From: Candidatus Lindowbacteria bacterium RIFCSPLOWO2_12_FULL_62_27
GTDB taxonomy: Bacteria; Lindowbacteria; 2-12-FULL-62-27
Length of the DNA stretch: 64,000 nucleotides
Assembly: GCA_001784175.1 (NCBI GenBank)
Contig: MFPR01000028.1
Span: forward strand, 255,606 to 319,605
Direction of reading: 5' to 3'
The notes beneath the pieces were generated by a model. That model saw nothing but the letters and a program-made list of their open reading frames with translations. It searched no databases and was not told where the DNA came from. Position 1 is the stretch's first letter; each line of letters opens with the position of its first letter. Positions 49,784-64,000 of the stretch are shown in pieces. The translations under genes were made by a program, and so were the position numbers.

Positions 49784-50953
49784 ATGGATACGACAAAATC
49801 CTCGGACATCCGGATCTGTTCGAGATGCGTGATGGATTCGAACATCCGGACGATCCGGTTCGACGATCAGGGGATCTGCAATTACTGCAAGCTCCACGAC
49901 GAACTCGAGAAGGAATTTCCTCTGGACGAGCGAGGCCGGAAGGAATTGGACGGCATCATCGAGCGCATCAAGGCGGAGGGCGCCGGCCGGGAGTATGACT
50001 GCATCGTGGGCATCAGCGGAGGCCGCGACAGCACCTACACCCTGTATCTGGCCAAAAAACAGTGGGGACTGCGCCCGCTGGCAGTCCATTTCAACGACGG
50101 CTGGGGCAACCCTGTCAGCGGCGCCAACATGAAACGCGTGACCGAGCAGTTGGGCGTCAAGATGCTGACCGTGTCGTCGGACTGGCGTGAATCGAAAGAC
50201 CTCAAGATCGCCTGTCTCCAGGCCTCCGTGCCGGAAATGGATCTCGGCACCGACATCGGATACACGGCGGCTCTCTATTCGGTGGCCGCCGCCAAGAACG
50301 TCAAAAACATCGTGTTCGGCCATTCATTCCGGGCCGAGGGGATCGCGCCGCTCTACTGGAATTTTCAGGAGGGCAATTATCTGAAAGAAATTCACAGGCG
50401 ATTCGGTTCGCATCCGCTCAGGCCCTGGAAGGCAACGGATGCCGGATTTAACTTTCAGATGCGGCATATTTTCTATTACACGGTCATTCGCCGGATCAGA
50501 TTCATCCCGGTCCTCAACTACCTCAAGTACAACCGGAATGAACTCGGCGAGTTCCTCACCAAGGAACTCGGCTGGCAGGACACGGTCGCGCGATATTTCG
50601 ATGACCTCTACCACGGGTTCATGAGCAAGGTCCTCAGGGAAAAATTCAGCATCGATCTGCGGAAGCTCTCCTACGCCGCCCTTGTGCGCACGGGATACAT
50701 GACACGGCAGGAGGCGCTGGACAAATTGAAGGAAATCCAGATTTCCGAGCGGCCGGATATCATCAACCTGTGCATCGACCGGCTCGGTGTCACCCAGGCA
50801 CAATTGGACGAATGGCTGAGCCGGCCGGTCAAAACGTTCAAGGATTATTCCAAGGTATACCGGTGGATGATCCTGTTGAAATGGCCCGCCTGGCTGTTCA
50901 GCCGGGTCCATCTGATCCCGGGGCATGCATACGCCAAATTTTATAAAGCTTGA
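49784..50953 (+). CDS. N-acetyl sugar amidotransferase (PseA/WbpG-like)
   Basis: This 389-residue protein has an N-terminal four-cysteine site (CSRCVMD and CNYCKLHD, about residues 11-40) followed by the PP-loop ATP pyrophosphatase motif GISGGRDSTYTLYLAK (about 71-86). This is the organisation of N-acetyl sugar amidotransferases such as PseA and WbpG, which convert a C-acetamido group on a nucleotide-linked sugar to an amidine during LPS O-antigen or flagellin glycan synthesis. The ammonia-supplying HisH/HisF-like partners are not in the window. It is divergent from ridA and likely independent. The downstream gene hppA starts 44 bp later. Confidence 0.9.
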   Translation: MDTTKSSDIRICSRCVMDSNIRTIRFDDQGICNYCKLHDELEKEFPLDERGRKELDGIIERIKAEGAGREYDCIVGISGGRDSTYTLYLAKKQWGLRPLAVHFNDGWGNPVSGANMKRVTEQLGVKMLTVSSDWRESKDLKIACLQASVPEMDLGTDIGYTAALYSVAAAKNVKNIVFGHSFRAEGIAPLYWNFQEGNYLKEIHRRFGSHPLRPWKATDAGFNFQMRHIFYYTVIRRIRFIPVLNYLKYNRNELGEFLTKELGWQDTVARYFDDLYHGFMSKVLREKFSIDLRKLSYAALVRTGYMTRQEALDKLKEIQISERPDIINLCIDRLGVTQAQLDEWLSRPVKTFKDYSKVYRWMILLKWPAWLFSRVHLIPGHAYAKFYKA

Positions 50954-50997
50954 CCCCGCATTGACTTTTTGCTGACTTTTAGTTTTTCTTCCACCCC

Positions 50998-53471
<2,474 letters not shown>

Positions 53472-53475
<4 letters not shown>

Positions 53476-53834
53476 GGCTCGGGCCCGTCCTGTTTGAACA
53501 GCCGCAAAATGTCCTTCCCCTTCTGATTGACAAATTTTGAAATGGCGGAATGGATCGCGCCGTCGACGCTGTTGCCGACGCCCAACACCGGCAATCCCGT
53601 GTCGACCTCCAAGGATTCCCGGCGCTCAATCACCGCAATCTTGTTTTCACCCATAAATCGGATGAGAGATGATTTGAGGGACTCATAGCGCTCTGCCGGC
53701 TCGACGCCATCGTCCACGATAAAAACAGACCCCTCATGCGACGCGTCCCAGATGCCCGCAACCGTTTTGCCGCGAAGTTCCTTGTTTTTTTCGCGCGCCT
53801 CCTCAATTTCGCTCCGAGGCAGGGACACCAGCAC
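53472..53834 (-). CDS. hypothetical protein
   Basis: This is a 120-residue, mixed alpha/beta, probably soluble protein. LRGKTVAGIWDASHEGSVFI (about 20-39), IRFMGENKIAVIERRES (about 58-74) and GNSVDGAIHSAISKFVNQKG (about 87-106) suggest a Rossmann-like beta-alpha-beta layout, but I do not recognise the family. It starts at GTG 53834 and its stop overlaps the end of hppA on the other strand by four bases. The same reading frame continues upstream through an in-frame TAA (53850-53852) into another 34 open codons, so it may be the 3' part of a larger, broken gene. Confidence 0.55.
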
Positions 53835-53847
53835 GTGTGACTGCCAG

Positions 53848-53955
53848 ACTTATCCCACGGTCTTGCTTCCGGACTGTTTGGCGAATTTTTCCGTATACCA
53901 GTCGATGGCCATCATCCCGGCCAGAAACGCTCCGGACCTTAAAACGTGGATAAGT
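53848..53955. repeat. 108-bp segment bounded by short inverted repeats
   Basis: ACTTATCCCACG (53848-53859) and CGTGGATAAGT (53945-53955) are inverted copies with a one-base gap. The DNA between them is open on the minus strand (AGMMAIDWYTEKFAKQSG) and is closed at both ends by TAA stops inside the repeats. It could be a miniature insertion or a gene remnant. Confidence 0.4.
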
Positions 53956-54187
53956 TAGCAGCCGAAGTTTGGCGAGGGGCAAATTTCGTCGACGGTGTTC
54001 AAATCAGAGAGCAAGAAAGGATCGCCGCTTGATCATGCGATCCACAACATTTGACAATATCTCGGTCGCCTCCGACACGACCCAATTTTGTTGCGGTCTT
54101 TTATTGAACACACTGGACTTCCTTTCCCGGAATGGGAGCAGTGAAATTAAAAACACTGGAGTCAATAAGCACAAACAGGTCCAAATT
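53956..54187. other. non-coding or decayed stretch
   Basis: This 232-bp stretch is more AT-rich than its surroundings and has no convincing gene. On the minus strand a short frame right after the ParE-like stop reads LFVLIDSSVF, which recalls the start of a PIN-domain toxin, but it stops after about 27 codons. Nothing else is recognised. Confidence 0.4.
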
Positions 54188-54481
54188 CTATCTGGTTTTC
54201 CAGTAATCCGGATCGCGGCGCAGGTGCATGACGGCCATGACAATGACTTGGCGTGGTTTGTCTCTGAATAGGATGCCAAAGGGAAATGTCTTCGTGAGGC
54301 ATCGGCGGACGTCAATGTCTACGACAGGATATATTCGAGGATTGAGGAGGACACGATTGATGGTGTCCTGAACGGAAGCAAGAAAACGGTGACCGAGTCC
54401 CTCCTGCTGTGCCTCATAATACGCCGCCGCCGCCGCAATCATCTCGGCCGCCGCGTCAGGATGGAATTTGACCCTCTTCAC
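54188..54481 (-). CDS. RelE/ParE-family toxin
   Basis: This 97-residue protein starts KRVKFHPDAAAEMIAAAAAY and contains QQEGLGHRFLASVQDTINRV, PRIYPVVDIDVRRCLTKTFP and ILFRDKPRQVIVMAVMHLRR. These are the strand-helix-strand pattern and closing HxxRxPxYWxxR (HLRRDPDYWKTR) of the ParE/RelE toxin superfamily. Members either inhibit gyrase (ParE) or cleave mRNA on the ribosome (RelE); the sequence does not decide. The start is GTG 54481 overlapping the antitoxin stop (GTGA), chosen over a longer frame that would run through the antitoxin gene. The protein is full length. Confidence 0.87.
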   Translation of the reverse strand: MKRVKFHPDAAAEMIAAAAAYYEAQQEGLGHRFLASVQDTINRVLLNPRIYPVVDIDVRRCLTKTFPFGILFRDKPRQVIVMAVMHLRRDPDYWKTR

Positions 54482-54708
54482 GCAATAGCCGCACGTGCCC
54501 TGGCAAAAACGGTGTTGGCATCGCGAAGTCTGACCATCCCCCGATCCAGTTGCGCGCAACGCCGGCGGATTTCCCGTTTCCACTTGGCTGATAATCTCGG
54601 AGACGTCGGCGCATCAAGACTCTCAATCAGTTTCTCCGCGACAAACGCCCGCAATGCCGGCGGAAGTTCCAGCGCCTCCGACACAACTTTCTCTGCTGTG
54701 CTTTTCAT
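54478..54708 (-). CDS. addiction-module antitoxin (PF09720-type)
   Basis: This 76-residue protein shows the pattern of the putative addiction module component family: ALELPPALRAFVAEKLIESL (about 12-31), then the W-x-x-E-I-x-x-R motif in WKREIRRRCAQLDRG (about 43-57) and a terminal A-N-T-V-F-A-R-A-R-A. This family pairs with ParE-like toxins, as here with a 4-bp overlap. The ATG is only six bases from the -10 box TATAAT, so its mRNA is probably leaderless, while the toxin depends on coupling. It is divergent from the VapBC module, 134 bp away. Confidence 0.85.
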   Translation of the reverse strand: MKSTAEKVVSEALELPPALRAFVAEKLIESLDAPTSPRLSAKWKREIRRRCAQLDRGMVRLRDANTVFARARAAIA

Positions 54709-54714
54709 GCCACC

Positions 54715-54742
54715 ATTATACTGATTTCGAACCGGATATCAA
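54715..54742 (-). promoter_or_regulatory. consensus promoter of the antitoxin-ParE operon
   Basis: On the minus strand TTGATA (54742-54737), 16 bp and a perfect TATAAT (54720-54715) lie six bases before ATG 54708. The predicted transcription start coincides with the start codon. Confidence 0.75.
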
Positions 54743-54767
54743 CGGCGGCGGTCGCATGTTCATTCAA

Positions 54768-54783
54768 TAAGTCTATAAGTCTA
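54768..54783. repeat. 8-bp tandem repeat (TAAGTCTA x 2)
   Basis: Two perfect tandem copies lie between the divergent promoters of two toxin-antitoxin modules. The repeat may be a regulatory half-site pair or one of the short dispersed repeats of this genome. Confidence 0.45.
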
Positions 54784-54816
54784 TGTCCGGCACCCAAGGC
54801 CGGAAATTTGACAGAA

Positions 54817-54840
54817 ATACAGATATATGGAAATCTGTAT
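54817..54840. promoter_or_regulatory. palindromic operator of the VapBC module
   Basis: ATACAGAT (54817-54824) and ATCTGTAT (54833-54840) are perfect inverted 8-mers with an 8-nt spacer, two bases before ATG 54843 and a few bases after TTGACA (54808-54813). This fits autorepression by the VapB dimer or VapBC complex. Confidence 0.6.
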
Positions 54841-54842
54841 AC

Positions 54843-55103
54843 ATGAAAACCACCTTACAGTTGCCGGACGGGCTCTACCGGAGTCTCAAGGTGACGGCGG
54901 CGTCCGAGGGGCGGACGTTGACGGAGTTGATCCAGGAGTGTCTGAAGAAGGGGCTGGCCCTGATGCGGTCGACTTCAAAACGAAAACATGCGCCCTATCG
55001 CCTTCCGGTTATTCGCAGTAAACGGCCCGGCGCGTTAAATCTGACATCGGAGATGATGGACGCCCTTCTGTGGGACGATCCGGCCGGCGTGAAGCGCAGA
55101 TGA
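54843..55103 (+). CDS. vapB: VapB-type ribbon-helix-helix antitoxin
   Basis: This 86-residue protein begins MKTTLQLPDGLYRSLKVTAA, the strand and first helix of an RHH domain; TLTELIQECLKKGLAL is the second helix (about 24-39). The basic linker KRKHAPYRLPVIRSKRPG and the acidic tail TSEMMDALLWDD are typical of the toxin-wrapping part of VapB. ATG 54843 is preferred over an earlier in-frame ATG because the RHH strand should be at the very N-terminus and because the operator lies immediately upstream. The stop overlaps the vapC start (ATGA). Confidence 0.85.
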   Translation: MKTTLQLPDGLYRSLKVTAASEGRTLTELIQECLKKGLALMRSTSKRKHAPYRLPVIRSKRPGALNLTSEMMDALLWDDPAGVKRR

Positions 55104-55531
55104 ATTTGCCGGACGCCAATGTCCTTCTGGCGATGTGCGCCGAGCGCCACGCCCACCATTCCGTTGCGGTGGAATGGCATCGTCTGGCGGCGGTTCGGGG
55201 AGAAGGGTGGGGCATGTGCCGGCTCACGACCTTGGCGCTTCTTCGAATGCTGACCAACCCGGCGATCATGGGTACCGATGTCCAGTCATCGGCGGCGGCC
55301 TGGAAATGCCTGGAGCAATTGGAGTCGGACCCGCTGTACCGTTTTCTTGAGGAGCCGGCCGGCTGTTGGCCGCTCTTTCAAAATCTGACGCGCACCGTGA
55401 AGGAGGGCCACCGCCATTGGACGGACGCCTATCTCGCCGCCCTCGCCGAATCCGCCGGCTGCCGTATCGTGACCTTCGACCGGAATTTCAGCGCCTGGCC
55501 CGGCGTGACGTCTACGATTCTCAAGCCTTGA
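55100..55531 (+). CDS. vapC: VapC-type PIN-domain toxin
   Basis: This 143-residue PIN ribonuclease has acidic metal ligands at NLPDANVLLA (Asp about 5), WTDAYLAALAE (Asp about 109, after HRH) and IVTFDRNFSAW (Asp about 127). An intermediate acidic position is less clear. The conserved hydrophobic pattern and TFDRNF near the end place it among the VapC toxins that cleave tRNA or rRNA loops. It starts inside the vapB stop codon and looks intact. The converging DUF1646 gene ends 12 bp downstream. Confidence 0.88.
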   Translation: MNLPDANVLLAMCAERHAHHSVAVEWHRLAAVRGEGWGMCRLTTLALLRMLTNPAIMGTDVQSSAAAWKCLEQLESDPLYRFLEEPAGCWPLFQNLTRTVKEGHRHWTDAYLAALAESAGCRIVTFDRNFSAWPGVTSTILKP

Positions 55532-55543
55532 TTTATTTGTCCG

Positions 55544-56602
55544 CTATTCCGACCGGATCAGCGCCAGCATCAAAATAAAGTAGATCGTCATCAGTGCCAG
55601 GCCGATCGGCGCGGCGAACCTTGCCCATGCGCCGCTCTTGATGTCGAGTTTCGCCGCGCAGATGATGTTCGGGATATTGCCGGGGATCAGCATGCCGCCG
55701 GCGATCAGGAGGCCCATCAGCAGAAACTCGATGCGCGCCAGACTCATCTTCGGCGAGATTTCCGCCGCCGCCAGCGTTGCGTTGTCGAGTACGGCTGACA
55801 CGCTGTTCACCCAGTAGAGGGCGGATTTGGGCATCTCGATCAAGTAGCGGTCGGCGAACGGCTGGAAGCCGCTGCCGAGCAGGACGAGCGCCGCCACGAA
55901 CACGTAGACTTTCGCGGTCCGGCTCAGGACGTCGACCCATGTTTCCGGGCGGTCCTCTTCCAAGCCGCTCTCTGAGCTGCTGCCGGCCCGCCGGACGGCC
56001 CACACCGCCATCACGCCCAGCGACAGGATCCCGCCGATGACCCACGGCCACAGCATCCGGAACAGAAAAAAGAAACCGGCATGATGGGGTTCGCCCGACA
56101 GCTTCGCGGTCGCGATCGTCGACAGCGGCTCGCCGATCGGCGTGAGGGCCGCACCGAGGCCGATCGAATAGCAGGAGAGGATGACGACGCGCCGTTCCCG
56201 GTCCTTGTCCCACTGCAGGCCCGAGATGATCTCCGCCAGCGTGAGCGCCGCCATGATGGCGGTGATCACGCTCGACAGAAGGCCGAGGCCGACCACCAGC
56301 GCAAAAACGAACCCGGCCGGGCCAAGCCGCCGCACCCATTGATTCACATGGTCATGGATGGCCGCGCGGGTGAGCCGGAAGATAATCCCGAAAACGAAAA
56401 CGGCCGCCGTGATCTTGAGCGGCTCCGTCAGCGCCTCTCCAATCAGATGCCGGCTCCAGAGGCCGCTGATCGTCACGGCCGCCGTGCCCATGACGAGCAA
56501 AAACGCCTCCAGCTCCTCCTCGATCCGGCGGACCGTGAACGGCAGGACCAGGACGAGCGACATGACGGCGCCAAGGCCGATCAGCACATGGATGTGTTCC
56601 AT
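55544..56602 (-). CDS. DUF1646 family putative cation transporter
   Basis: This 352-residue membrane protein with about ten spans matches my recollection of DUF1646, a family related to NhaD/ArsB-type permeases. SCYSIGLGAALTPIGEPLS (about 144-162) and WVNSVSAVLDNATLAAAEI (about 268-286) are the two pseudo-symmetric conserved stretches, the second resembling the DNAT motif of sodium/proton antiporters. IPGNIPNIICAAKL (about 311-324) is also family-typical. The gene is the last of a four-gene minus-strand operon with DUF1538 and two PII-like genes, 31 bp behind the second PII gene, suggesting coordinated, PII-controlled ion transport. The ion is not known. Confidence 0.82.
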   Translation of the reverse strand: MEHIHVLIGLGAVMSLVLVLPFTVRRIEEELEAFLLVMGTAAVTISGLWSRHLIGEALTEPLKITAAVFVFGIIFRLTRAAIHDHVNQWVRRLGPAGFVFALVVGLGLLSSVITAIMAALTLAEIISGLQWDKDRERRVVILSCYSIGLGAALTPIGEPLSTIATAKLSGEPHHAGFFFLFRMLWPWVIGGILSLGVMAVWAVRRAGSSSESGLEEDRPETWVDVLSRTAKVYVFVAALVLLGSGFQPFADRYLIEMPKSALYWVNSVSAVLDNATLAAAEISPKMSLARIEFLLMGLLIAGGMLIPGNIPNIICAAKLDIKSGAWARFAAPIGLALMTIYFILMLALIRSE

Positions 56603-56633
56603 TCTTTGGCCCCCCGTGGCCGGATTGGTTCGG

Positions 56634-56978
56634 TTACTTGGTCTGTTCGGCTGGAATGTCGGGCAGGGCGAAGGGCACGGACTTGCGAAGGCGCGTCATG
56701 TAAATGAGGCCGCCGCCCGGCCGGTCGATGTTCGCGGTTTCGTGCATGAGATCAAAGAGTTCTTCGGATTCCTCGCCCTTCACGGTCACCGTCACGATTT
56801 CCTTCTCCACTTGTTCGGGTGATCCGCTCTTGCCGGTGGGATCGCCATAATCCGAACCCCGCGAGAAGCAAAGGTTGGTCGTGGTCACGCCCCGCTTGTG
56901 GATGGCCTCCAGAAGCGGCAAGCCGGCGCCTTTCGGCAGGATGCAGGTAATGAGTTTGCTGCCGGAATCCGCCTGCAT
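56634..56978 (-). CDS. PII-like signalling protein, second copy
   Basis: This 114-residue protein has the ferredoxin-like PII fold: KLITCILPKGAGLPLLEAIH as the first strand and helix, a long loop RGSDYGDPTGKSGSPEQVEK in place of the T-loop, then EIVTVTVKGEESEELFDLMH, and a closing strand GGLIYMTRLRK. The uridylylation Tyr of GlnB is not found at its usual position, so it belongs to a divergent group likely to bind nucleotides without covalent modification. It shares the I-D-x-P-G-x-G-x-I-Y-M-T motif with its neighbour, indicating an old duplication. It lies 15 bp behind the first PII gene and 31 bp before the DUF1646 gene. Confidence 0.8.
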   Translation of the reverse strand: MQADSGSKLITCILPKGAGLPLLEAIHKRGVTTTNLCFSRGSDYGDPTGKSGSPEQVEKEIVTVTVKGEESEELFDLMHETANIDRPGGGLIYMTRLRKSVPFALPDIPAEQTK

Positions 56979-56993
56979 GGTCGAATGCCTCCC

Positions 56994-57365
56994 CTACGCC
57001 TTGTGCGCCTTGGAAAGTTTTTCGATCAGGAACTGCGGGATGTAGGTCGCCGCCTTTTCAAGCTCGGTCATATAGATGAATCCCATGCCGGGCGTGTCGA
57101 GATTTCCCGCGAGAAACATCGCCTCGAAAATCCGGTCGGCGTCGTCCGAGCCCACGACGATGTTGATGATTTCCTTTTCCGCCTCCACCGCCACGCCGAG
57201 GATTCCAAGCCGCTCCCGAATGCCCGTGCCGCGCGCGAAAAACACCGTCGCGGCCTGCGCCCCGGCCTCCGTCGCCGCCTTCACGATCTTGTCCGCCACC
57301 CCGCGCTGGACGATGCACGTGATCAGCGTCACGTCGGTCAGCACGGTAATCTGTCGCTTGGTCAT
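56994..57365 (-). CDS. PII-like signalling protein, first copy
   Basis: This 123-residue protein has DVTLITCIVQRGVADKIVKA (about 11-30), then ATVFFARGTGIRERLGILGV (about 39-58) as the shortened T-loop segment, EKEIINIVVGSDDADRIFEA (about 63-82) and PGMGFIYMTELEKAA (about 92-106). The order of strands and helices is that of PII/GlnB trimers, but the modified tyrosine is absent. The start codon overlaps the stop of the DUF1538 gene by four bases, the arrangement seen for PII proteins that gate a neighbouring transporter (such as GlnK-AmtB). The likely partner is therefore the DUF1538 membrane protein. Confidence 0.85.
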   Translation of the reverse strand: MTKRQITVLTDVTLITCIVQRGVADKIVKAATEAGAQAATVFFARGTGIRERLGILGVAVEAEKEIINIVVGSDDADRIFEAMFLAGNLDTPGMGFIYMTELEKAATYIPQFLIEKLSKAHKA

Positions 57366-59140
57366 GCCACAGCTCCTCCCGCCGCCACCTGCGCTGCCTG
57401 CGCGGCCTTTTGTCGGTTTGTCCGCCATTGAACAAACAATCCCACCGCCAGCACCGAAATGATCGGACACACCGACGCCATCGCCAGAATGCCGAATCCT
57501 TCCGCGGCGCTGACCGCGTTGCCGAATCCCAATCCCATGGCGAGCACCAGGGGAACCGTCACGGGTCCCGTCGTCACGCCGGCGCTGTCCCAGCCGATGT
57601 TCACGTATTCTTCCGAAGAGAAATGCGTCATGATCAGCAGCGGGATGTACGACCCGATCAGCATCCATGCCAGCGGCCAATTGTACAGAATCTTCAGTAT
57701 GCCGATGGAAATGCCGGCGGCCACCCCGACCGCAACAGAGTACATGAGCGCCGATTTTTTAAATGCTCCGTTTGAAAGATTCTCGACCGTGAGGCCGAGG
57801 GCGTTCAGGGCCGGTTCCGCCAGCGTCGCGCCAAAGCCCAGCGCGTAGGCGAAAATCATCGCCAAGAGGACGCCGACGAAATAGGCATACAGCGGCGAGG
57901 ATGGAATGGTGTCGAGCCGCATGAACGCGGCCGGAACGATCTGTCCCGACTGGTCGCCCAGCTTGGCGAGACCGTAGGTTAATCCGATATTGAAGAGAAT
58001 CATCCCGATGATGGACAGCGTGATGCCGTACGTCAGAATTCCGGTATTTCGGATTTTTTCCCGCAGGACGAAAATCAACACCATGAACAGAAACGCGATG
58101 AGCGGCAGGATGGCTCGAAGGGACATGACAATCTCAAGCCCCGGGCTGGCCTGGTACCAGGTCGGCTCGCCTGAGGCCGCCGCCGCTTCGGCGGCCGCTT
58201 TCGCGCTCGCCAGAATGGTCTCGGTCGGAACAGTGAGGTAGATGAAAATACCGAGCCCCAATACCATCAGGATCGGAAAAACGGATGCCAGCGTCACGAT
58301 GCCGAATCCCGACAGGCTCCCGCCGCCCTTGCCGACGGCCGTCGCCACGCCGATGCCCAGCGCCAGCACCACCGGCACGGTGACCGGCCCGGTGGTCACG
58401 CCGCCGCAGTCCCAAGCCAGGCCGATGACGGCGCGCAAATTAGGATTGTAATTGCAGTAGGCGGTGACCGCCATGGTCGGGATCAGGGAGGAGTAGATCA
58501 GAGGTTTTAGACTCCAGCCATAGACGAATCTCAAGGTTCCCAGCGTTGCGGCGATGCCCACTCCGATCCCGACCATGACGACGGTCCACTGCGCGTAGGT
58601 GTTCAAGAGCGCATACAAAATGGGAGCGCTCTCCGGTTTGACCAGTCTCCCCGCGTACTGCAGGGCGCCGATGGCGGGTTCGGCGTAGGTGACGAGCACG
58701 CCGAGAACAAACGCGATCAAGAGAACGACCGGCAGCGGCCGCTTGGTCGGCAGCATGTTCCCGATGACTTCGGCGAACGGCATGATCCCGAGTTTCAGGC
58801 CTTCCATGTAAAACATCAGCCCGAGGATGACCGCAAGAAGCCCGCCATTGATGACGTAGGGGTCGGCGACACCCTGCCGCAGAATGATCAACTGAAAGAG
58901 CACGAGGTACACGCCCAGCGGCACCACAGCGCGCAACTGCTCCGCGAGCCGCGGCGTCACGTACGGCTTGAGTATCCGCGCCGTCTCCTTCGGCGTCACC
59001 TTCAGTTTCGCGGGCTTGTAGGGAATGGGCTTCCCGTCCGGCCCCTTCTGGATTTTGGGCATGAGAAGATTGTAGCTGAGCTGACTCTGCTGAACGGAGA
59101 CTTCCCGTGCAAATTCTCCGAATCGAACTGCCTTTTCCAT
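57362..59140 (-). CDS. DUF1538 membrane protein (two-repeat, UmpAB-like)
   Basis: This 592-residue protein has two homologous membrane halves (about 70-320 and 345-575). Each carries the same signature: WDCGGVTTGPVTVPVVLALG near residue 243 and WDSAGVTTGPVTVPLVLAMG near residue 516. Each also has a YAEPAIGAL/LAEPALNAL segment. The first 65 residues are hydrophilic and cytoplasmic. DUF1538 proteins occur as one fused or two separate genes; a pair called UmpAB from a Halomonas species has been described as a monovalent cation/proton antiporter, which I recall but cannot verify here. It heads the PII-containing operon. The region upstream to 59232 has no clear promoter. Confidence 0.85.
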   Translation of the reverse strand: MEKAVRFGEFAREVSVQQSQLSYNLLMPKIQKGPDGKPIPYKPAKLKVTPKETARILKPYVTPRLAEQLRAVVPLGVYLVLFQLIILRQGVADPYVINGGLLAVILGLMFYMEGLKLGIMPFAEVIGNMLPTKRPLPVVLLIAFVLGVLVTYAEPAIGALQYAGRLVKPESAPILYALLNTYAQWTVVMVGIGVGIAATLGTLRFVYGWSLKPLIYSSLIPTMAVTAYCNYNPNLRAVIGLAWDCGGVTTGPVTVPVVLALGIGVATAVGKGGGSLSGFGIVTLASVFPILMVLGLGIFIYLTVPTETILASAKAAAEAAAASGEPTWYQASPGLEIVMSLRAILPLIAFLFMVLIFVLREKIRNTGILTYGITLSIIGMILFNIGLTYGLAKLGDQSGQIVPAAFMRLDTIPSSPLYAYFVGVLLAMIFAYALGFGATLAEPALNALGLTVENLSNGAFKKSALMYSVAVGVAAGISIGILKILYNWPLAWMLIGSYIPLLIMTHFSSEEYVNIGWDSAGVTTGPVTVPLVLAMGLGFGNAVSAAEGFGILAMASVCPIISVLAVGLFVQWRTNRQKAAQAAQVAAGGAVA

Positions 59141-59231
59141 CTTTTACACTTTCACCTGACCGGTCGTGGGCGCGCGCATGGCTGAGTAAAATCGTTACTA
59201 TGCAGGCGCCGTGTTTGCAAGACCGCGATGA

Positions 59232-60275
59232 CTATTTGGCGGCGGCCTGATGAAGTACCCGCTGCGGAAACGGGATCTCGATCCCCTCGCGCCCGAAGCG
59301 CTCATGGACGCGCTTGATGAATTCGTGCGTCGCCAGGTGCTGGTCCTCGAATGCCATCACCCGGAGCAGGATCATGAAATCGACGGATGACTCGCCGAAG
59401 GCCTGATACCGCAGAATCGGTTCGAAGCCCGGGATCGCGCCCGGAACCTCCCTCTGCACGCCCGCCGCCACCTCCAGCGCCACGCGCTCGACGCGGGACA
59501 GATCGCTCGCGTACGAAACGCCGAGCCGCACGGGAACGGAAAACTCGCGTCGCGGGAGATTCAGATTCGTCACCACCGCCTGCGCGATTTTGGTGTTTGG
59601 GATCAGGATGAAATTGTCCGCCCGGTCGCAGATCGTGGTCGACCGCCAGCCGATGTCCCTCACGAATCCCTCCGCGCCGCTGTCGAGTTTGATGTAATCC
59701 CCCAGGCGGATCTGGCGGTTGACGATGATGTAGATGCCCGAAAACAGATTTGACAGCGTGTCCTGCAGCGCCAGCGCGACGGCCAGGGAGCCGACGCCGA
59801 GCGCCGTGAGGAGCGGCGCGATCGAGATGTCGAGGTTGGCGAGGATGAGCAGGAGGCCCATCCCGTAGATGACGAGCCGCGTCAGGTTTTCGAGGAGCGT
59901 GGTCGTGCCGAGCGCCAGCCGCGTCGCGACGGAGTGGATCCACACGACGGCGATCCGGGCGATGGCCAGCGACACCGAGAGGACAAACAGGACCATCAGC
60001 AGGTGGTCGATGTGCCGGATCCAGAGCGGATGCAGGCCGCGCAGCGGCGACAGCCGCAGGCCGACGACGATGCCGGCCAGCGTGAACCAGAACGGAATGT
60101 GCCGCCGGCCGGCCGCGTACAGCACCTCTTTCATCTGCGGCTCGACTTTCTCGAAAAACCGCGCGAGGGGCCGAAGCAGAACGGCCGGCGCCAGAAATCC
60201 GGCGATGGCGGCGGCCAAAAAGATCAGAATGGGTTTGAGCCACGGTCCGGCCCATGCAAGCATTGGGATGTCCAT
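59232..60275 (-). CDS. mscS: small-conductance mechanosensitive channel (MscS family)
   Basis: This 347-residue protein has four predicted transmembrane helices: one at 16-34, then about 60-80, 90-115 and the pore-lining helix with Gly/Ala packing in ALGVGSLAVALALQDTLSNLFSG (about 157-179, cited in part). The beta domain follows with IIVNRQIRLGDYIKL and GFVRDIGWRSTTI, then NFILIPNTKIAQAVVTNL, standard MscS hallmarks. The C-terminal alpha/beta domain ends near FGREGIEIPFPQRVLH. It opens on hypo-osmotic shock to release solutes; the trehalose genes next door supply a compatible solute, so an osmotic-stress grouping is plausible. Confidence 0.93.
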   Translation of the reverse strand: MDIPMLAWAGPWLKPILIFLAAAIAGFLAPAVLLRPLARFFEKVEPQMKEVLYAAGRRHIPFWFTLAGIVVGLRLSPLRGLHPLWIRHIDHLLMVLFVLSVSLAIARIAVVWIHSVATRLALGTTTLLENLTRLVIYGMGLLLILANLDISIAPLLTALGVGSLAVALALQDTLSNLFSGIYIIVNRQIRLGDYIKLDSGAEGFVRDIGWRSTTICDRADNFILIPNTKIAQAVVTNLNLPRREFSVPVRLGVSYASDLSRVERVALEVAAGVQREVPGAIPGFEPILRYQAFGESSVDFMILLRVMAFEDQHLATHEFIKRVHERFGREGIEIPFPQRVLHQAAAK

Positions 60276-60318
60276 TGATTATTATTTCGTCACAAACGGG
60301 CGGAATCTTGTTGAAAAT

Positions 60319-61116
60319 TTACCGGCGGCGCCGTCTCCAGCGGGCGATCAGCCTCCTCAGAAACTCGGTCACCTCCGACGGATCCTTCAGCCGATAATTC
60401 CCGCCGGCCGGCCGGTGTCCGACGGCGATGCCGGCGCCCCGGCCGCGCACGGCGCGCAGGAGATCCGCGTCCGTGCGGTCGTCGCCGATCGCGATGCAGA
60501 AGTCGCGTTCCACCGGCCGCTCCCCGCAGAGCGCCGTCACGGCGAGTCCCTTGTGGGCTGCGACGGCCTTTGCCTCGATCGCGCCTTTCCCCCGCATCAC
60601 CCGCAAGACGCCCTTGTCTACGGGGGGCCGCAGCAGGCTCAGGAAATGCCGGCACACGGCCCGGCGCCGGCCGGGGGCGGCTCGCCGGTAGTGGAGGGAC
60701 ACGGCGAATTTCTTGTCTTCGACGGAAAACGTTTCGTCCGCGACGCCTCGCATGCCTGCGAGAATCCTGCGGACGGCAGGCCGCGCTTCGGGCGCGTCGA
60801 TCAGAAGCCGCACGCGGCCCATTCCCCGCGCGCACTCGGCGCCGTGCGTTCCGACGTACCACGCCCGCCGAAGCGGCATAAGGCTGCGCATGCCGCGAAT
60901 CGACCGCCCCGTCACGATCGCCAGGGTGACGCCGCGCGTGCGAGCGATTCGGCGCATCAGCGCCACCAGCGCGCGTCCGGGCACGGCGTCTTCCGGCCGG
61001 GGCGCGATGGGCTTGAGCGTGCCATCGTAGTCGAGAAACAGCACGAGCCTTCGGGCGCGCGCCATCCGCCCGGCGATGTCGCGCAGAATTTTTGCGGGTG
61101 TCGTAAAGCGCATCAT
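60319..61116 (-). CDS. otsB: trehalose-6-phosphate phosphatase
   Basis: This 265-residue HAD phosphatase converts trehalose-6-phosphate to trehalose. Motif I is LFLDYDGTLKPIAPRPEDA (about 26-44) with the catalytic aspartates, motif II is AIVTGRSI (about 66-73), the substrate-specific GTHGAE follows at about 89-94, and the late motif is GDDRTDADLLRAV (about 212-224). The GTHGAE and GDDRTD motifs are specific to OtsB rather than general HAD phosphatases. The C-terminus is a run of arginines. The synthase partner lies on the other strand across tRNA-His. Confidence 0.93.
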   Translation of the reverse strand: MMRFTTPAKILRDIAGRMARARRLVLFLDYDGTLKPIAPRPEDAVPGRALVALMRRIARTRGVTLAIVTGRSIRGMRSLMPLRRAWYVGTHGAECARGMGRVRLLIDAPEARPAVRRILAGMRGVADETFSVEDKKFAVSLHYRRAAPGRRRAVCRHFLSLLRPPVDKGVLRVMRGKGAIEAKAVAAHKGLAVTALCGERPVERDFCIAIGDDRTDADLLRAVRGRGAGIAVGHRPAGGNYRLKDPSEVTEFLRRLIARWRRRRR

Positions 61117-61200
61117 CTGCGCGTTGTACCTGTTCGAGCCGGCCTGTCAAGCCGACGGATTGATCGACCTCCTTCGCGATGGTAATAAGATGAAGGAAAT

Positions 61201-61273
61201 GGTGGCTATAGCTCAGCGGCAGAGCACCTGACTGTGGCTCAGGGGGTCGCGGGTTCAAATCCCGTTAGCCACC
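61201..61273 (+). tRNA. tRNA-His (GTG)
   Basis: The cloverleaf can be drawn fully. The acceptor stem GTGGCTA/TAGCCAC carries the extra 5' G-1 (61201) opposite C73 that is unique to tRNA-His. The D arm is GCTC...GAGC, the anticodon stem CCTGA/TCAGG encloses loop CTGTGGC with anticodon GTG, and the T arm is CGGGTTCAAATCCCG. The 3' CCA is not completely encoded (CAT follows C73), so it must be added enzymatically. Confidence 0.96.
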
Positions 61274-61332
61274 CATCTATTTGCCAACCGCGCGTTCCCA
61301 TCGTCGATGTTTCAGGATAAGCTCATCTCACC

Positions 61333-63597
61333 ATGCGCATCAGCCTTCGTCTGATTGTCTCTTTGGTGGTCGCCGTGTCCGTGGTGGCCTGTTTCTTCGC
61401 GTATGTCCAGGTCGGCCAGGAGAAGGAGCGGCACAGCGACGAACTGGACCGCCGGTCCCGGCTCCTGGCGGAAAGTCTTCAGGAAACGATTGGCCCGCTG
61501 ATCGAGAAGGGACCGTCCGGCGATTTGGAACGGCTCGTGGAGAAATATGGAAACCGTGAACGGCTGGCCGGAGTGGCGGTCTACGACGCCAGGGAAAGTC
61601 CCCTCGCCGTCACGGCCAGCCTGTCCGCCGCCCTGCCCACGCCTCTGCCGATGGTGGGCGAGGCGATGCGGGGCGACGTCGATGTCGGCCGGTTTGAGAC
61701 ATTCGGCGGGAGGGAAATGCACGTCTATGCCATGCCCCTTCGGATTGGAGAAAGTATCGCGGGCTGCCTCCTGATCTTTCATGACGCGACGTTCATCCGG
61801 ATTCAACTGTCCCGAATCTGGCGCCAGACATTTCAGCGGTTGCTGGTGCAGATGGTGCTGATCGCGATCGTGACCTTGCTGATCGTCCGCTGGAGCATCG
61901 CAGGACCGATCGCGCGGATGGCGGACTGGATGAAAAATCTCCGCGCCGGAGACGTCGGCGAGCCGTTTTCGGCGCCCAAGGAAGACCTGTTTTCACCCAT
62001 CGCCAAGGAAGCCTCCCGCTTCGCCCTGCATCTGACGATTGCGAAGCAGGCCGCGGAGGATGAGGCGCGGCTTCGTCAGGAGGCGTCGACCCTCTGGACG
62101 CCCGATCGGTTGAGAGAACATGTCCGGTCGAAATTGCAGGGCAGCCCCCTGTGTGTGGTTTCCAATCGCGAGCCTTACATGCACATTCGGCGCGGCCGCA
62201 AAGTCGAGTGCATTGTTCCCGCCGGCGGACTCGTGACCGCCTTGGAGCCTGTCCTGCGATCCTGCAGCGGCACCTGGATCGCCCATGGTTCCGGCGACGC
62301 CGACTGGGAAGGCTTGGACGAAAAAAATCGCATCAAGGTTCCGCCCGATGATCCGCTCTACACGCTGAAACGGGTGGCGCTCACCAAAGAGGAGGAGAAC
62401 GGATATTACTACGGGTTTGCCAACGAGGGACTCTGGCCGCTCTGTCATATCGCGCATACCCGGCCGGTCTTCCGGGCAGAGGACTGGGCGTATTACCAGA
62501 AAGCCAACCGGAAATTCGCCGCCGCAGTACTGGAGGAACTGAAGGACGTGGCGTCGCCCTGCGTTTTGATCCAAGATTATCATTTCGCCCTCCTGCCCCG
62601 GATGATCAAGGACGAACGGCCGGACGCGCGCATCGCGCTCTTCTGGCACATCCCCTGGACCAACCCCGAGGCGTTCGGCATCTGCCCCTGGCAGAGGGAG
62701 CTTCTCTACGGAATGCTGGGTGCGGATTTGATCGGCTACCACACGCAGTTCCACTGCAATAATTTCCTGGACACGGTCGACCGCGCGCTCGAATCCCGCA
62801 TCGATTGGGAGCGATTCGCCGTCAAGAAAGAAGGCCATACCACCCTCGTCAAACCGTTTCCCATCAGCGTCGCCTTCCCGGAAACGTTTCAGGACACCGC
62901 CGGCGCGGACCTGGTGGACCGCGACGCCCTTTTGAAGGAACACGGGATCAGGGCCAAGTATCTGGGGATCGGCGTTGAGCGGATGGATTACACCAAGGGC
63001 GTGCTGGAGCGGTTCCGGGCGATCGAGCGCTTTTTGGAAAAAAATCCCGCCTACCAGGGCGAGTTTGTCTTCGTCCAGATCGGCGCGCCCAGCCGCACGC
63101 ACATCAAGCGGTACCAGGACTTTCTGTCGGAAGTGGAGTCCGAGGCCGACCGGATCAACTGGAGGTTTCCGCCCAAGGATTACAAACCCATTGTTTTTCT
63201 AAAGAAGCACCACAGCCATCAGGAGATTTTGCCCTTTTACAAAGCAGCCGACCTCTGCATGGTCACGTCGCTTCATGACGGCATGAACCTCGTCGCCAAG
63301 GAATTCGTGGCGGCCCGGGATGATCAGAACGGCGCGCTGATTCTAAGCCGTTTCACAGGCGCCTCCCGGGAACTTCGCGACGCGCTCATCGTCAATCCCT
63401 ACGATATCGAACAAATGGCCGAGTCCATCCGCTACGCGCTGGAGATGGATCCTGAAGAGCGGTCCGCGCGGATGGGCCGGATGCGAGAAACGGTTCGGGA
63501 ACACAACGTCTACCGCTGGGCCGGCAATCTCGTCGAAGAGCTCACCAAAATCCGAATTGACGAACGGCCGGCTCCCGCCGGCGTAGGCACAAATTAG
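61333..63597 (+). CDS. membrane-anchored sensor-like/HAMP protein fused to trehalose-6-phosphate synthase (GT20)
   Basis: This 754-residue protein has TM1 at about 5-24, an extracytoplasmic sensor-like region at about 25-155, TM2 at about 170-188 and a HAMP-like linker (about 186-238, GPIARMADWMKNLRAGDVGE). Residues about 270-735 are a complete glycosyltransferase-20 domain, making trehalose-6-phosphate from UDP- or GDP-glucose and glucose-6-phosphate. Catalytic motifs match OtsA: VVSNREPYMHIRRG (about 276-289), LIQDYHFALLPRM (about 413-425), VERMDYTKGVLERF (about 552-565) and DGMNLVAKEFVAARD (about 651-665). OtsA is normally soluble and about 470 residues. Here membrane sensing may control synthesis directly. 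The phosphatase gene is nearby but divergent, across tRNA-His. Confidence 0.9.
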   Translation: MRISLRLIVSLVVAVSVVACFFAYVQVGQEKERHSDELDRRSRLLAESLQETIGPLIEKGPSGDLERLVEKYGNRERLAGVAVYDARESPLAVTASLSAALPTPLPMVGEAMRGDVDVGRFETFGGREMHVYAMPLRIGESIAGCLLIFHDATFIRIQLSRIWRQTFQRLLVQMVLIAIVTLLIVRWSIAGPIARMADWMKNLRAGDVGEPFSAPKEDLFSPIAKEASRFALHLTIAKQAAEDEARLRQEASTLWTPDRLREHVRSKLQGSPLCVVSNREPYMHIRRGRKVECIVPAGGLVTALEPVLRSCSGTWIAHGSGDADWEGLDEKNRIKVPPDDPLYTLKRVALTKEEENGYYYGFANEGLWPLCHIAHTRPVFRAEDWAYYQKANRKFAAAVLEELKDVASPCVLIQDYHFALLPRMIKDERPDARIALFWHIPWTNPEAFGICPWQRELLYGMLGADLIGYHTQFHCNNFLDTVDRALESRIDWERFAVKKEGHTTLVKPFPISVAFPETFQDTAGADLVDRDALLKEHGIRAKYLGIGVERMDYTKGVLERFRAIERFLEKNPAYQGEFVFVQIGAPSRTHIKRYQDFLSEVESEADRINWRFPPKDYKPIVFLKKHHSHQEILPFYKAADLCMVTSLHDGMNLVAKEFVAARDDQNGALILSRFTGASRELRDALIVNPYDIEQMAESIRYALEMDPEERSARMGRMRETVREHNVYRWAGNLVEELTKIRIDERPAPAGVGTN

Positions 63598-63600
63598 AGC

Positions 63601-63628
63601 TTGACGATCGGCGCCGATAGGGTATACT
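63601..63628 (+). promoter_or_regulatory. MazEF promoter with palindromic operator in the spacer
   Basis: TTGACG (63601-63606), 16 bp and TATACT (63623-63628) are followed by AGGAGG (63644-63649). The spacer holds the perfect palindrome ATCGGCGCCGAT (63607-63618), a likely MazE/MazEF autorepression site. Confidence 0.7.
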
Positions 63629-63656
63629 CATTGTAGACACCACAGGAGGCCTTTCA

Positions 63657-63899
63657 ATGACTACAACCGTTCAAAAATGGGGGAATAGCTTGGCTCTTAG
63701 GATACCGAGCGCTCTCGCCAAGGACGTTCATCTTCATCGGGGATCGGAAGTTGAGGTCGCAATTGTTGCAGGCGCAATGGTGATCAAGCCAAAGGGTCGG
63801 CGTAAATATTCTTTGCGCCAATTGCTCAAGGGAGTTACGAAGGAGAATCTTCATAAGGAACAGGATTGGGGCGGTCCTGTGGGGCGGGAAATCTGGTGA
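63657..63899 (+). CDS. mazE: MazE-type (AbrB fold) antitoxin
   Basis: This 80-residue protein starts TTTVQKWGNSLALRIPSALA, the swapped-hairpin DNA-binding domain of MazE/AbrB/SpoVT proteins (Q-K-W-G-N-S-L-A-x-R-I-P). EVEVAIVAGAMVIKPKGRRK follows as the closing strands, then a flexible acidic/Trp-containing tail (KEQDWGGPVGREIW) that should bind the toxin groove. A strong AGGAGG site lies seven bases upstream. Its stop codon overlaps the toxin start (GTGA). Confidence 0.9.
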   Translation: MTTTVQKWGNSLALRIPSALAKDVHLHRGSEVEVAIVAGAMVIKPKGRRKYSLRQLLKGVTKENLHKEQDWGGPVGREIW

Positions 63900-64000
63900 C
63901 TTCCGGCCCCTATTGTCCAAAACGCGGCGATGTCGTTTGGCTCAACTTCATTCCGCGGGCCGGCCGTGAGCAGGCGGGTCGCCGACCGGCGTTGACGCTT
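63896..64000 (+). CDS. mazF: MazF-type mRNA interferase, 5' part (cut by window end)
   Basis: The 35 visible residues start at GTG 63896. CPKRGDVVWLNFIPRAGREQ and GRRPALTL correspond to the opening R-G-D-V-x-W-x-x-x-x-P-x-x-G-x-E-Q-x-G-R-R-P-A-L of MazF/PemK toxins, which cut single-stranded mRNA. The gene overlaps mazE by four bases. The rest lies beyond the window. Confidence 0.9.
   Translation, partial: MTSGPYCPKRGDVVWLNFIPRAGREQAGRRPALTL

Follow-up and report, generated by a model that had tools for sequence, protein, structure and literature searches.

A four-gene operon of Candidatus Lindowbacteria bacterium RIFCSPLOWO2_12_FULL_62_27 places two PII-like genes between two genes for membrane transporters. 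To which of the transporters are the PII-like proteins coupled, and do they act separately or together? The operon lies in a stretch of 64,000 nucleotides (GenBank assembly GCA_001784175.1, contig MFPR01000028.1, positions 255,606 to 319,605), here called the window, to which coordinates refer unless another locus is named.

Operon Organization and Genomic Surroundings

The following genes are considered.

57362-59140, minus strand: DUF1538 gene, coding for a fused UmpA-UmpB-type putative membrane antiporter of 592 amino acids
56994-57365, minus strand: PIIa, a conserved PII module of 123 amino acids, directly 3' of the DUF1538 gene
56634-56978, minus strand: PIIb, the second PII gene, a degenerate PII module of 114 amino acids
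55544-56602, minus strand: DUF1646 gene, CitMHS/ion-transporter type, 352 amino acids, the lineage-specific last gene
50998-53475, plus strand: hppA, membrane pyrophosphatase (NCBIfam membrane PPase, 1380 bits), convergent to the operon and on a separate transcript

The compact layout described in an earlier note on this DNA is borne out by the coordinates: the stop codon of the DUF1538 gene and the start codon of PIIa share 4 bp (ATGA), and gaps of 15 and 31 bp separate PIIa from PIIb and PIIb from the DUF1646 gene. The full four-gene order was found again in genome L034, which belongs to a second genus of the same family. The arrangement is not due to chance, because adjacency of DUF1538 and PII is universal in the sampled genomes (below) and the four-gene order recurs in L034.

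In each of the three genomes of the phylum that were examined, hppA and the PII-antiporter operon meet tail-to-tail. The distance between them is about 13 bp in L034 and in the sister genus L014/L041 (hppA at 5677-6633 in L034 and 10907-11119 in L014). The pyrophosphatase contains the motif GNTFKA, which we take to mark the K+-independent, usually H+-pumping type of membrane pyrophosphatase. In the window, toxin-antitoxin-like genes at 54188-55531 separate hppA from the operon and are missing at this place in both sister genomes; they comprise an RHH protein with a PIN/VapC protein (54783-55531) and a further small pair (54188-54708), judged by eye. Just upstream of the operon is a gene for an MscS-type mechanosensitive channel (59232-60275, minus strand), itself preceded by a trehalose phosphatase gene, and these surroundings are an osmotic-stress neighbourhood. 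A search of positions 50000-64000 against Rfam detected no Na+ riboswitch ahead of the operon, the sole Rfam match being a tRNA.

The DUF1538 Protein Is a Fused UmpA-UmpB-type Protein

Pfam DUF1538 matches the first gene product in two stretches (E = 2e-104, 348 bits, cut-off 22.6). Judged by sequence, the protein is a natural fusion of UmpA and UmpB, because among the NCBIfam families its two homologous halves place closest to UmpA (N-terminal half, 217 bits) and then to UmpB (C-terminal half, 186 bits). These scores stay below the equivalog cut-offs of 490 and 500 bits (NF041627/NF041628), with homology at E = 2e-64.

The UmpAB protein of Halomonas zhaodongensis was shown experimentally to be a hetero-dimeric Na+(Li+,K+)/H+ antiporter and is the only UmpAB protein with demonstrated antiport activity (PMC5484666). 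By homology to it, Na+(Li+,K+)/H+ exchange is the most likely activity of the fused protein of the window. Both systems are built from a DUF1538 pair, which the window fuses in the order UmpA-UmpB; unlike the Halomonas system, the window has a single chain with PII genes attached, and the published work left PII unconsidered, making no mention of it (PMC5484666). A search of open-licence papers for UmpA, UmpB or DUF1538 together with PII returned no relevant literature. In an independent machine-learning study, DUF1538 is among the key families of pH adaptation (PMC13255231).

A structure model of the DUF1538 protein is an all-helical membrane protein (pLDDT 78, pTM 0.78). Among solved structures, a sequence search gave no relative and Foldseek nothing at or below E = 0.001, and VIA comparison gave Z-scores of at most 5.7, which are not meaningful and do not by themselves establish a novel fold. 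Taking the fold from solved structures was dropped for want of a clear sequence or fold relative.

A PII Module Follows DUF1538 in Every Testable Locus

When 19 loci were drawn from 84,980 genomes by DUF1538 alone, a PII gene was immediately downstream in all 19. Addition of samples from Pseudomonadota and Desulfobacterota gave 82 independent DUF1538 loci, those examined being the better-scoring ones of each sample. Two were set aside, as their contigs end 70 and 121 bp past DUF1538. The other 80 better-scoring loci, whose contigs continue for at least about 180 bp past DUF1538, all have a PII module downstream on the same strand. A separate UmpA search within one gammaproteobacterial order found PII at 20/20 loci, 17 of them new. 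The adjacency holds for split and fused transporters alike and covers Gammaproteobacteria, Campylobacterota, Desulfobacterota, Zixibacteria, Cloacimonadota, Calditrichota, Chloroflexi, Dependentiae, and the window's own phylum. In a Chloroflexi metagenome-assembled genome (L018), a PII module is fused to the C terminus of DUF1538 (93 bits to the class-A HMM). The PII link to DUF1538 is the robust result.

Outside DUF1538 and PII, the loci compared have no conserved genes in common, so we regard these two as the unit. Upstream enzymes, kinases, and channels were considered as further conserved neighbours and rejected, as they are not shared between loci. A further DUF1538-PII pair of the window genome (L005, 4700-8809) lies between a Kup K+ transporter gene, which directly precedes it, and a gene identified by eye as recG-like; five other P-II matches in this genome score as ordinary PII.

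PII Form Follows Transporter Form

Copy number and form of PII vary in step with the form of the transporter. Split UmpA and UmpB genes are accompanied by one PII gene (18 loci) or by two fused modules (2 loci, the group to which L104/L110 belongs). Short fused DUF1538 proteins of about 600 amino acids are followed by two PII genes, PIIa and then PIIb (34 loci, including L018, which has another PII gene besides its fused module), and PIIb keeps the same position across these loci. With long fused DUF1538 proteins of about 700 amino acids, a single gene encodes three PII modules (17 loci). L014/L041 have PIIa and a PIIb-PIIb fusion. The gene order in L034 is DUF1538#1-PII-DUF1538#2-PIIa-PIIb-DUF1646, so that the two separate DUF1538 loci of the window genome are one cluster there.

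The idea that the PII modules always total three is contradicted by two-module chains with no third PII gene in L106, L107, L110, and L112. In the Desulfobacterota loci L112 (792-1568) and L110 (812-1864), such PII-PII chains stand beside DUF1538.

PIIa Is Conserved and PIIb Is Degenerate

PIIa matches Pfam P-II (E = 4.5e-8, 33.8 bits, cut-off 25) and scores as a member of the PII superfamily. PIIb matches no Pfam family even at E = 10 and falls short of the superfamily score. It is nevertheless homologous to PIIa and its relatives, as seen from phmmer cross-hits and from a score of 57 bits with the class-A HMM; a class-B HMM, self-trained, gives 118 bits. By this homology to PIIa, we classify PIIb as PII-like.

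The canonical GlnB/GlnK signatures are Y-[KR]-G-[AS]-[AE]-Y in the T-loop, G-D-G-K in the B-loop, and Arg-101/Arg-103. The T-loop and B-loop signatures are matched by none of 37 PIIa and none of 37 PIIb sequences. PIIa retains the GlnB residues Thr-29, Gly-35, Gly-37, Lys-58, Gly-87, and Gly-89 and is without Tyr-51, Lys-90, Arg-101, and Arg-103. Few GlnB residues are left in PIIb, from which most canonical ligand-site residues are gone. At the position of GlnB Tyr-51, PIIa has Val and PIIb has Glu, confirming that both lack the canonical T-loop tyrosine; PIIb has a tyrosine elsewhere in the loop. Over the same 37 loci, mean pairwise identity is 61% for PIIa versus 30% for PIIb. In the three-module chains, it is 54% for the PIIa-like middle module T2 and 29 and 40% for the outer modules T1 and T3.

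The PII fold was modelled for the homologous three-module chain of L029. The predicted structure contains three β-α-β-β-α-β folds (pTM 0.81), and its closest solved structures are GlnK/PII proteins (Z = 10.5-12.0). A number of PII chains from solved structures could be aligned with residues 7 to ∼365 of the model; a side-by-side position of modules 1 and 3, resembling a closed ring, would fit this, but the alignment is only suggestive.

DUF1646 Is a Lineage-specific Addition

The last gene product is a DUF1646 protein (Pfam E = 5e-108, 362 bits, cut-off 21.4) that also passes the CitMHS threshold weakly (5e-8, 32.8 bits, cut-off 31.9). An orthologue with 70% identity occupies the same place in L034. 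Within the phylum, DUF1646 is in the DUF1538-PII operon of two of three genomes, both from one family, and it is missing from all 10 other DUF1538-PII genomes tested. As a comparison, 11 DUF1646 matches in a Desulfobacterota sample include one with PII nearby, in a canonical glnK/amtB cluster. A constant partnership with DUF1646 was rejected on these two counts. In the Desulfobacterota locus L154 (3964-7997), DUF1646 lies inside an amtB-glnK/amtB cluster near a glutamine synthetase gene, and the glnK frame is broken in the available sequence.

DUF1646 is therefore a lineage-specific add-on to the DUF1538-PII operon. The conserved gene order that the earlier note proposed to look for was found for DUF1538-PII and, as four genes, in L034; its four-gene unit does not generalize. 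Its PII-gated cation/pH system survives as a coupling of PII to the UmpAB family and loses the DUF1646 part, for whose control by PII position is the sole argument.

Na+ riboswitches tie DUF1646 proteins to Na+, and Na+/H+ antiport is predicted for some of them (PMC9337991). The window protein shares their family and its link to Na+ biology, but stands in a PII operon and has no Rfam match for the riboswitch.

The same data bear on the suggestion that PIIa and PIIb are independent homotrimeric sensors, each with its own ligand and its own transporter to control (DUF1538 or DUF1646). The PII genes are separate, the transporters lie at both ends of the operon, and PIIb adjoins DUF1646 in the window and in L034. 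However, PIIb accompanies short fused DUF1538 also where DUF1646 is missing, has lost most canonical ligand-site residues, and is far less conserved than PIIa; outer modules are degenerate as well, and in sister lineages the modules are joined in a single chain. We consider two separate sensors unlikely. One composite PII assembly appears to be the better reading, because the form of PII changes with that of the transporter, both PIIb and the outer modules are degenerate, and modules are fused in sister lineages.

Proposed Mechanism

We think it likely that the operon encodes a PII-regulated monovalent cation/proton antiporter, with PIIa as the docking protein, PIIb as its partner, and DUF1646 as an add-on. 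AmtB and SbtA are established cases of a transporter gated by the PII protein encoded beside it (PMC10710835), and the genomic context gives good support to the predicted gating of the antiporter. The ligand of PIIa would be a metabolite (probably an adenine nucleotide), bound at a site without the GlnB phosphate-gripping residues Lys-90, Arg-101, and Arg-103; that PIIa senses such a nucleotide or a related metabolite is suggested by the retained cradle and the missing phosphate grips. The conserved PIIa loop, RERLGxLG, would dock on the cytoplasmic face of the antiporter and switch transport on or off by energy or metabolic state, as indicated by the universal adjacency, the one natural fusion, and the GlnK-AmtB and SbtB-SbtA precedents. 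PIIb, as a degenerate partner, most likely joins PIIa in one assembly; our hypothesis is a mixed trimer, tentatively 1:2, and hence an asymmetric PII ring as opposed to the symmetric rings of GlnK and SbtB. Only in the window's lineage would DUF1646 contribute a further ion transporter with the same physiology.

A wider proposal can be put forward only tentatively: symmetry-broken PII assemblies (PIIa/PIIb mixed trimer, PIIa with PIIb-PIIb, and single-chain three-module rings) may control DUF1538 and may have evolved for a two-half, pseudo-dimeric transporter. An antiporter composed of two homologous halves would depart from the trimer-on-trimer pattern, and PII might have adapted to such a transporter by having unequal modules.

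Several points count against this mechanism. The window protein is well under the UmpA and UmpB equivalog cut-offs, and a PII trimer on a reported hetero-dimer breaks the trimer-on-trimer pattern (PMC10710835). Halomonas UmpAB is functional in E. coli without its own PII (PMC5484666); PII is therefore dispensable for activity and would be a modulator. The two-module chains count against the composite ring.

Could the antiporter link reflect shared expression only, with the PII proteins regulating transcription or a cytoplasmic enzyme? Co-transcription alone can keep genes adjacent, and many PII proteins act on soluble targets. Yet no other gene of the neighbourhood is conserved, L018 has a natural DUF1538-PII fusion, and PII number and form change with the transporter, which makes a soluble target quite improbable. 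That PIIb is a decaying duplicate of PIIa with no role is very improbable: its low conservation, lost ligand-site residues, and missing Pfam match fit decay, but its frame is kept open in the short fused DUF1538 loci, it is duplicated and fused in L014/L041, and T1 and T3 are likewise retained in 17 three-module chains.

The PII-gated antiporter that we favour resembles GlnK-AmtB in having a gene for a PII-fold regulator beside that of a membrane transporter, the gating being proposed for the window. It differs in that AmtB is a channel whereas the window protein belongs to an antiporter family, in having no canonical GlnK signatures, and in having two unequal PII proteins where GlnK forms one homotrimer. 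With SbtB-SbtA, it shares a non-canonical, probably nucleotide-sensing PII beside a Na+-linked secondary transporter; the transporter families are unrelated, and SbtA and SbtB are homotrimers whereas the PII modules here are concatenated or, by hypothesis, heteromeric. A precedent for a divergent PII clustered with a proton/cation antiporter is PII-NG, which adjoins CzcABC proton/metal antiporters (Sant'Anna 2009, as cited in PMC7726332). CzcABC is an RND heavy-metal efflux pump, unlike DUF1538, and that article describes no fused or paired PII modules.

What is new here is the UmpAB-type family as a PII partner, which is not in the PII literature found among open-licence papers, and its association with unequal or concatenated PII modules; its proposed way of working is that of the known PII-transporter pairs. 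If the mechanism is correct, PII control would extend to monovalent cation/proton antiport, and hence to pH and sodium homeostasis, and a widespread family of antiporters of unknown structure would gain a regulator that earlier work missed. The natural single-chain and mixed PII assemblies would offer a ready system for PII rings with three unequal sites and a test of whether PII acts on non-trimeric transporters, contrary to the known pattern (PMC10710835).
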